Below are positions 7,060 through 11,220 of a DNA stretch of 64,000 nt, one piece after another; the first letter of the stretch is position 1; each line of letters begins with the position of its first letter. This stretch comes from an uncultured Ectothiorhodospiraceae bacterium. GTDB lineage: Bacteria; Pseudomonadota; Gammaproteobacteria; Nevskiales; Oceanococcaceae. Made by a program: the position numbers and the translations under genes. The stretch is from the NCBI GenBank assembly GCA_937141935.1, contig CAKZQS010000052.1, positions 1 through 64,000 on the forward strand, given 5' to 3'. Under the pieces are notes generated by a model that saw only the letters and a program-made list of their open reading frames with translations, ran no database searches and had not been told where the DNA came from.

Positions 7060-7078
<19 letters not shown>
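5699..7078 (+). CDS. PqiA-like integral membrane protein with large N-terminal extracytoplasmic domain
   Basis: A 459-aa inner-membrane protein. TM1 is near residues 10-30, followed by a ~185-residue soluble, charged, partly helical region (many Glu/Arg/Leu, e.g. around residues 100-190). Several TM segments then lie at ~220-240, ~252-275, ~320-350, ~372-392 and ~415-440. The C-terminal half carries the paraquat-inducible protein A pattern: [13 protein letters not shown], then [17 protein letters not shown], then [16 protein letters not shown]. PqiA-type proteins work with MCE proteins in lipid transport between membranes, but no pqiB (MCE) gene is adjacent. The last 19 bp overlap the 3' end of the converging metH C-half gene. 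The zinc-ribbon cysteines of classical PqiA are absent. Confidence 0.72.
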
Positions 7079-9708
<2,630 letters not shown>

Positions 9709-9719
9709 AAGGGGGTGAT

Positions 9720-9750
9720 AACCACAGATTCCGCAGATTTCACAGATTGC
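9720..9750. repeat. Terminal inverted repeat, left, made of three 9-bp units
   Basis: After AA, three contiguous 9-mers read CCACAGATT, CCGCAGATT and TCACAGATT (9722-9748). The inverted copy is at 10129-10156. The stop codon of the enclosed gene (complement of 9740-9742) is in the third unit. Confidence 0.92.
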
Positions 9751-10138
9751 TGGAATGCACGAAACGCTTGATTTGCAAGCTTGGTGCGCCGAAGTTCAGC
9801 AGCAGGCCACGCGGCAAACCAGAAGCCTTGAGGTAGTTCAGCACCTGTGCCTGCTCGTTGACACCGACGGCGGACTGGGCCTTCAGTTCGACCAGCAACG
9901 CGTCGAAGCAGACGAGGTCGGCACGATATCCCAGTTTCAGCGGCGCGCCCCGGTAGAAAATCGCCAGGCCCACCTCCGACCGAAACGGAATGCGGCGAGC
10001 CACAAGCTCGGTTTTCAGCGCAGCGTGATACACGGCCTCCAGAAAGCCGGCGCCAAGTTCCCGGTGCACGGCTAAGGCTGCGCCAATCACCGCATGCGAG
10101 CGCGAGTCCCTGCTTTGGCTTAATCGATATCTGTGCAA
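9740..10138 (-). CDS. GxxExxY protein (PDDEXK_3 family)
   Basis: A 132-aa protein with the family signature GFLEAVY (Gly31, Glu34, Tyr37). A PD-(D/E)XK-like nuclease core follows: Asp74 in YRADLV, Glu84 and Lys86 in VELKA, then QAQVLNYLK and [11 protein letters not shown]. Family function is unknown; the fold suggests nucleic-acid cleavage or binding. The first plausible start is TTG at 10138, inside the right inverted repeat; a GTG at codon 17 is the only other in-frame choice and would remove part of the first helix. The reading frame ends with TGA inside the left repeat. GC content is lower than in the flanking metH genes (visible as AT-rich repeat and 5' end), consistent with acquisition. 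Confidence 0.88.
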
Positions 10139-10156
10139 TCTGCGAAATCTGTGGTT
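10129..10156. repeat. Terminal inverted repeat, right, made of three 9-bp units
   Basis: Read on the minus strand from 10156: AA, then CCACAGATT, TCGCAGATT and GCACAGATA. Against the left repeat it differs at 2 of 28 positions. The likely TTG start of the GxxExxY gene (10136-10138) lies across the second and third units. Confidence 0.92.
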
Positions 10157-10167
10157 CCTCTTCTGTA

Positions 10168-11220
10168 TTAGGCAGTTACGACAAAAGGCTCAAGGCCGGA
10201 CAGGCGCAGGGCCGGGCGGGGTTCGGGGCGTGGGCGGGGGGGCAGGCCGTCGACGGCAGCCGCGATGGCGGCGATGTGCTCGGGCGAGGTGCCGCAGCAG
10301 CCGCCAACGATGTTCAGCAGGCCGGCCTGCGCCCATTCGCGGATCTGCGCGGCCATGGCCTCGGGGCCGAGGTCGTATTCGCCGAAGGCATTCGGCAGGC
10401 CGGCATTGGGGTGCGCCGACACGGCGCACTCGGCAATGCGCGACAGCTCGGCCACGTAGGCGCGCAGCTTGTCCGGGCCCAGCGCGCAGTTCAGGCCGAA
10501 GGACAGCGGCTGGGCGTGGCGCAGCGAGTGGTAGAAGGCCTCGGTGGTCTGGCCGGTCAGCGTGCGGCCCGAGTCGTCGGTGATGGTGCCCGAGATCATC
10601 AGCGGCGGCGCGTCGTCGCCCGGGAACAGCGTGCGCACGGCGTAGACGGCGGCCTTGGCATTGAGCGTGTCGAAGATCGTCTCGACCAGCAGCAGCTGCG
10701 CGCCGCCATCCACCAGGCCCTGCGCGGCCTCGGTGTAGCTCTCGACCAGCGTGTCGAAATCGACATTGCGAAAGCCGGGGTCATTGACGTCCGGCGAAAT
10801 CGACGCGGTGCGGTTGGTCGGCCCGAGCACGCCGGCCACGAAGCGCGGCCGCTCGGGCGTCGCCACGGCTTGCGCCGCCTCGCAGGCCAGCTCGGCGGCG
10901 CGGCGGTTCAGCTCGTAGCACAGCGACTCCATCGCGTAGTCGGCCTGGGCCACGCGCGTGGCGTTGAAGGTGTTGGTGGCGGCGATGTCGGCACCCGCCG
11001 CCAGGTAAGCCTGGTGGATCTCGCGGATCAGGTCCGGCTGCGTCAGCGTCAGCAGGTCGTTGTTGCCGCGCAGGTCCTGCGGCCAGTCGGCAAAGCGTTC
11101 GCCGCGGTAGTCCGCCTCGGCCAGCTGATGCTGCTGGATCTGCGTGCCCATCGCGCCATCCAGCACCAGGATGCGCTCCGCCAGGGCGGCGCTGAGGGCG
11201 TTTTGGCAATCTGTGGGCAT
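10168..11220 (-). CDS. metH: Methionine synthase, homocysteine-binding N-terminal part
   Basis: A 350-aa homocysteine S-methyltransferase domain protein that supplies the zinc/homocysteine half of split MetH. It begins with the conserved [10 protein letters not shown] motif. The zinc ligands are Cys245 (GLNCALG) and Cys308/Cys309 ([10 protein letters not shown]). Length and end point correspond to E. coli MetH residues 1-~350. It is first in the operon, with the C-terminal half (7060-9708) downstream beyond the GxxExxY cassette. The ATG at 11220 has a GGAG ribosome site 9 bases upstream. A 28-bp palindrome 16 bp upstream of the start is a likely operator. Homocysteine methyltransferases such as MmuM or BhmT are alternatives in isolation, but the pairing settles the call. 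Confidence 0.96.

Follow-up and report, generated by a model that had tools for sequence, protein, structure and literature searches.

A probable compact mobile element formed by a lone GxxExxY nuclease gene and inverted arrays of short tandem units

A 437-bp cassette between two metH genes is probably a compact mobile element, in which terminal arms made of unit triplets enclose a sole PD-(D/E)XK nuclease gene whose product is matched to the units and would cut at or near them. The cassette lies in the window, i.e., the whole stretch of 64,000 nucleotides analysed here, and its gene encodes a protein of the GxxExxY family.

The cassette and its protein

The inverted arms (9720-9747 and 10129-10156) are 28 nt long, complementary at 26 of 28 positions and separated by 381 nt. 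Each holds three contiguous 9-bp units, as the initial annotation had described: CCACAGATT, CCGCAGATT and TCACAGATT at 9722-9748 on the left, and CCACAGATT, TCGCAGATT and GCACAGATA at 10154-10128 on the right, where the innermost unit has one mismatch. The siting between two genes, also claimed at the outset, is equally clear, with metH parts at 7060-9708 and 10168-11220 and a gap of 459 bp between them. The features are:

9720..10156, minus strand: whole element, 437 bp
9720..9748, plus strand: left terminal inverted repeat, AA followed by three 9-bp units (9722-9730, 9731-9739, 9740-9748) with core CRCAGATT
10128..10156, minus strand: right terminal inverted repeat, three 9-bp units (10146-10154, 10137-10145, 10128-10136) and outer AA
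9740..10138, minus strand: GxxExxY PD-(D/E)XK nuclease gene, 132 aa, TTG start, TGA stop; E34, D74 and E84-x-K86 intact
9709..10167, no strand: intergenic gap hosting the element, between two metH genes; some relatives have just about 10 bp here

Between the arms we found no gene beyond GxxExxY: only PF13366 and TIGR04256 matched, and no transposase did. Rfam gave no match for the region 9600-10300. The only in-frame start ahead of the conserved core is the TTG at 10138-10136, within one arm, and the TGA stop at 9742-9740 falls within the opposite arm.

The assignment to the GxxExxY proteins of PD-(D/E)XK type, for which Asp74 and Glu84-x-Lys86 had been pointed out, is confirmed by the profile matches (PF13366, E 2.6e-35; TIGR04256, E 1.2e-37), which lie far above the curated cut-offs (121.8 bits against 22 for Pfam and 128.8 against 35 for NCBIfam), and by the conserved residues: an alignment of 60 relatives shows no variation at G31, E34, Y37, D74 or K86 and almost none at E84. 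The AlphaFold2 model is confident (pLDDT 91.8, pTM 0.86) and has the PD-(D/E)XK fold. Its best match among solved structures is chain 4ic1 (SSO0001, a Cas4-family protein), with Z 9.6 and rmsd 4.4 over 100 residues; the remaining PD-(D/E)XK nuclease folds match with Z below 8, I-Bth0305I being among the weak ones. The closest folds appear to be Cas4/lambda-exonuclease-like rather than those of transposases. By sequence, no relative was found in the PDB.

Arms as a trait of the family

The initial annotation had named rarity of such repeats among homologues as a point that would count against it. Inverted arms in fact flank 101 of 117 GxxExxY loci from many phyla, compared with 3 of 567 displaced controls (Mann-Whitney p 1e-57 for the arm scores). 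Here the arms are the top-scoring inverted repeat, without gaps, that pairs one flank with the other, counted when its score is at least 14, and the controls are windows of equal geometry displaced by 700-1300 bp within the same loci. The arms usually consist of three units of the general form CRC-NRA-K. The unit length of 9 bp in the cassette does not hold as a fixed value, since units across the family measure 8-10 bp, and the unit sequence also varies by locus (CACAGAT, CACGAAG, CACGAAT, CACAGAG, CGCAAAG, CGCCAAG, CACGGA and others). From arm to arm the elements have a median length of 481 bp (range 345-761). Start and stop codons placed inside the repeats, a proposed hallmark, are real in the window cassette but incidental in general: the stop lies within an arm at only 17 of 101 loci, and at 84 of 101 a possible start is available between arm and core.

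The unit type follows the protein tree. With 78 rows labelled automatically by the triplet after CRC, the tree requires 15 changes of unit type, against at least 31 (mean 38) in 300 shuffles; a smaller, hand-labelled set requires 6 against at least 15. About ten named phyla are represented in the AGAT clade alone. Unit and protein subfamily thus change together. A residue-by-residue search for specificity positions using independent pairs was unpowered, with just 2 pairs on supported branches. In Chloroploca Khr17 (L109:2180-3000) we also observed a second GxxExxY-like gene, which has an early stop, is flanked by many CGCGAAG units and lies upstream of a nucleotidyltransferase-like frame and of the CAGATT element of L109 whose internal deletion is described below.

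Gene-less copies

The window's genome (3.57 Mb) has one GxxExxY gene. The pattern CAGATTNCNCAGATTNCNCAGATT, allowing up to 3 mismatches, matches it 31 times and the reversed pattern 0 times, so the repeats are not due to chance. These CAGATT-triplet matches fall into 15 places, the window cassette included; a few are single or compound, and most form opposed pairs of 59 to about 420 bp with AACCAC...GTGGTT ends and without a GxxExxY gene. Five of the places were tested for their neighbours, among which are ATP synthase beta, S-adenosylhomocysteine hydrolase, an NADH-reductase-like protein, enolase with a DAHP-synthetase-family enzyme beside it, and an acyl-CoA dehydrogenase with an adjacent carboxyltransferase. 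The elements L009 and L011 (C29:78976 and 82139), which are similar, measure about 415 bp each and lie 3.2 kb from one another, have degenerate CAGATT units inside and hold no recognised gene.

Across 274 genomes of the class the gene is patchily distributed, with 42 carriers. Carriers make up all 5 of the genomes that have the CAGATT triplet (Fisher p 7e-5), 7 of the 11 with the CACGAAG triplet (p 2.6e-4) and 10 of the 21 with the CACAGAG triplet (p 2.5e-4). Gene-less pairs do outnumber those with the gene, as the initial annotation had feared, but they occur mainly in carriers (19 of 33 genomes for the three motif types pooled, compared with 42 of 274 overall; p 1e-9, a statistic that, like the others, treats genomes as independent although related ones such as G123 and G246 are not), and for this reason they look like derivatives rather than a refutation. 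The CAGAG triplet is present in 8 of 8 carriers with AGAG-type ends and in 2 of 34 carriers of other types; the count of 8 includes the gene's own ends, which 5 of the 8 clearly exceed with 9-56 copies.

Some genomes are rich in the motif and have no gene: G166 has 50 CAGAG triplets and G121 has 24, while G278, with 24 CAGAG and 11 CGAAG triplets, has GxxExxY only as a sub-threshold fragment. A relaxed PF13366 search of eight motif-rich, GxxExxY-free genomes gave sub-threshold fragments only. The copies in G166 and G121 therefore persist, or spread, without the gene. Dozens of CACAGAG-triplet hairpins, mostly of 60-170 bp, are seen in G166, G121 and G278 (L283-L285, L287-L301), and the three near-identical CACAGAG elements in a row in G278 (L284, L285) suggest local tandem amplification.

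Homology that stops at the arms

On one Ignavibacteriales contig, two loci (L079 and L081) are homologous from arm to arm over 584 bp (78%), with unrelated flanks. Two loci on one contig of Asticcacaulis biprosthecium (L061 and L068) are likewise homologous from arm to arm over 582 bp (73%) and not beyond, and another Asticcacaulis (L047) has the same unit at a different site. Because homology between paralogous copies is confined to the arm-to-arm region in two genomes, the arms bound a moving unit, which supports the earlier proposal of a minimal element made of a nuclease-like gene and its ends. The copies L079 and L081 differ by 40 synonymous and 15 nonsynonymous substitutions, so the protein has been maintained; in this one informative pair examined, the substitution counts show the gene as being under purifying selection. 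A Chloroploca element (L109) corresponds to that of L037 minus 178 bp inside the gene, with the arms kept and 95-99% identity otherwise, and such internal deletion is one route to gene-less copies.

A search of 81 elements detected no target-site duplication: direct repeats of at least 4 nt were observed 28 times against 23.9 expected. A 2-nt AT excess is confounded with continuation of the inverted repeat, which runs about six bases further outward (TTTTAT-CCRC). The flanks at different insertion sites are unrelated, and no shared target was seen. Viral contigs, searched with two patterns, gave no relative; the sole GxxExxY relative in phage records is in Halogranum tailed virus 1 (KC292026.1:91528-91860), and 8 of 72,556 plasmid records have one. 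Given this rarity, phages or plasmids are not the usual vehicle.

Nesting and turnover in one genome

The genome G123 has 113 CAGATT and 103 CGAAG triplet matches together with five GxxExxY matches. Three of its genes each lie between different arms: CACGAAG, ACAGGAT, and a mixture of CGCAGATT and CGTTGATT. Its CAGATT pairs have near-identical ends and unrelated interiors, which do not cross-match save for one duplicated pair. Many of these pairs sit concentrically within outer arms of the CACGAAG or ACAGGAT type, from which about 20 bp separate them at either end; this concentric order may arise when an element inserts in the middle of a palindrome that is already there. Nested sites with CAGATT or ACAGGAT as inner arms include L229:7163-7420, L234:10255-10520, L237:6686-7020 and L227:10470-10680. 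The unrelated interiors of gene-less elements L225-L235 (140-210 bp) are strongly foldable.

We compared four sites with the congener G246, where the flanks are about 90-97% identical, and found no clean empty site among them. One is a scar of about 20 bp, and the other three, from a reading of the alignments, appear occupied by a decayed element whose units are of another type; the sites have therefore been reused. A further repeat, about 270 bp long (L233:10546-10815), forms a family of its own with some 25 copies in G246 (74-91% identity).

The metH junction

A check of this junction in relatives, as the initial annotation had proposed, gave cassettes with differing ends and lengths in nine genomes (G000, which is the window's genome, G001, G005, G008, G011, G027, G029, G031 and G039), in the same orientation in several, and a junction of about 10 bp in G006, G013 and G016; in many others it is short or without the gene. 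In L148 (G019) and L158 (G021) it has apparent remnants of element ends and the gene is missing. The metH flanks of the window's genome and a congener are 83-86% identical at the DNA level, while the window protein is only 51% identical to the congener's metH copy and 59-61% identical to proteins of Rhodospirillales, Sumerlaeota and Caulobacteraceae, a combination that favours replacement or re-insertion. A single metH clade was not rejected in a tree test (p 0.38), and one ancient insertion followed by fast change is compatible with this result. For G000 plus G001 and for a five-row group the constrained tree outscored the free tree, so the roughly 120 columns resolve the GxxExxY family poorly.

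The same design around an unrelated protein

As an unrelated control we tested the four-helix-bundle family 23S_rRNA_IVP (PF05635), and found inverted arrays of short units flanking 25 of 30 loci (L303-L332), compared with 1 of 110 controls. The units mostly have a 7-bp period (GTTCAGT, AGGGAGT, GTTCTGA, CAAGATT and others). The element design is thus common to two unrelated small proteins. We also considered IVP genes as an explanation for the CAGAG triplets of GxxExxY-free genomes, and rejected them because IVP arms use other units.

Interpretation and alternatives

We infer that the GxxExxY nuclease recognises the units and mobilises both its own element and matching gene-less copies. Binding of the units by the protein is suggested by their co-segregation, which could instead reflect common inheritance of arms and gene. 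The protein would bind the unit triplets, probably as a dimer that bridges both arms, and cut in or beside them, perhaps when they are extruded as a hairpin; this cut would start the movement. Its completion would fall to host repair or replication rather than to a DDE-type strand transfer, given that neither a transposase nor a target-site duplication was found. The enzyme would also act in trans on gene-less pairs, a part of which would arise through internal deletion. Counting against a nuclease-driven process are the interiors of the gene-less copies, which unlike those of classical MITEs are unrelated, the lack of a target-site duplication, and folds that are not those of transposases.

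The first two of these points also fit an unlikely alternative, namely that the elements move by another route, in which hairpins are processed by replication, repair or recombination or a different enzyme acts, and that GxxExxY is a passenger, an autoregulator or an arm-binding stabiliser. The abundance of CAGAG triplets in G166 and G121, the nested arms, and an unrelated IVP protein in the same kind of element would fit as well. What speaks for the nuclease is that the unit type tracks the GxxExxY tree, that the motifs are enriched in carriers, and that GxxExxY is the sole gene fitting a unit of about 480 bp. A homing-like process is quite improbable; in it the nuclease would cut one specific target while empty, for example the metH junction, the element would be copied in by repair, and the arms would serve mainly as hairpins. 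PD-(D/E)XK homing enzymes exist, I-Bth0305I is among the weak fold matches and the metH junction has been occupied repeatedly by different cassettes, but copies lie at unrelated sites with no common target, and the conserved, co-varying sequence is in the element ends and not in the flanks, so that homing, which the initial annotation had entertained, gains no specific support. It is more improbable still, and disfavoured, that the gene is a vertically inherited member of the metH operon whose hairpin arms serve RNA processing or message stability: the shared junction and orientation in several relatives and the unrejected metH clade are what such inheritance would give, but the window protein is nearer to those of distant taxa than to the congener's metH copy, and most GxxExxY loci are not at metH at all.

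Paired repeats of this kind have been read before as binding sites of global regulators. In Geobacter metallireducens, the passages of PMC2700814 (BMC Microbiol 2009) that describe them annotate as such both class 2 sites, i.e., 21 opposed and variably spaced pairs of three TCTCCGTS[Y] repeats in tandem, and class 3 sites, i.e., five tandem MTYCTGA heptamers. Extending that proposal to our elements would make GxxExxY an ordinary nearby host gene. Opposed triplet pairs in intergenic regions, a class 2 motif that is the complement of CACGGAGA, and several gene-less pairs adjoining housekeeping genes (ATP synthase beta, AdoHcyase, enolase) would agree with it. The reading is nevertheless disfavoured and very unlikely to be correct, given duplicated units that are homologous from arm to arm with the gene inside, the arms that flank most GxxExxY genes across many phyla, and a patchy presence.

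Returning to the nuclease-driven element, we lean slightly towards a broader view, that of an unrecognised class of mobile elements in many phyla, in which a lone PD-(D/E)XK nuclease would recognise iterated ends and move itself and gene-less copies without a known transposase, and of which 23S_rRNA_IVP would independently share the end design. If true, this would add a class that moves with a nuclease alone. Repeats of the CACAGAG, CACGAAG and CAGATT kind occur in many bacterial genomes, and a link to the gene would explain repeats annotated as regulator sites. It would also offer a testable role for the GxxExxY family, which is widespread and has no stated function, and the natural protein/unit pairs are ready material for a recognition code.

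Comparison with known systems

The unit strings had no match in the open-access literature that was searched, where 'GxxExxY' occurs in two papers and is, in one of them, only an annotation. The family of elements is very widespread and apparently undescribed as mobile. By their published description, the Geobacter metallireducens class 2 sites, as triplets of the CACGGAG type (complement CACGGAGA), look like GxxExxY arms, and the class 3 heptamers resemble IVP arms; the difference is that the passages of PMC2700814 treat them as regulator sites, without a link to GxxExxY or IVP genes. The 23S_rRNA_IVP elements likewise enclose a small gene within inverted arrays of short units in tandem, but their protein is all-helical and unrelated, and their units, mostly of 7 bp, have another sequence.

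Freestanding homing endonuclease genes, PD-(D/E)XK types included, are similar in being lone, selfish-looking nuclease genes with a patchy distribution, whereas the cassette has protein-matched inverted arms, dispersed gene-less copies and no fixed target. REP/BIME sequences with RAYT are likewise numerous palindromic repeats of intergenic regions, in many cases within operons, and are tied to one gene type; the nuclease of the cassette has another fold, and unit triplets to either side of the gene form the ends. The likeness to insertion sequences and MITEs consists in one gene between terminal inverted repeats, in dispersed gene-less copies with matching ends (the opposed CAGATT pairs of G000 and G123 share the ends of the autonomous element), and in homology between copies at different sites that stops at the arms, as in L079/L081 and L061/L068. 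Unlike insertion sequences, the cassette has no transposase of the DDE, HUH, serine or tyrosine type, no detected target-site duplication, and ends made of tandem short units; unlike MITEs, its gene-less copies have unrelated interiors (in G123, save one duplicated pair). In the way it would work, the element is like an insertion sequence with non-autonomous copies.
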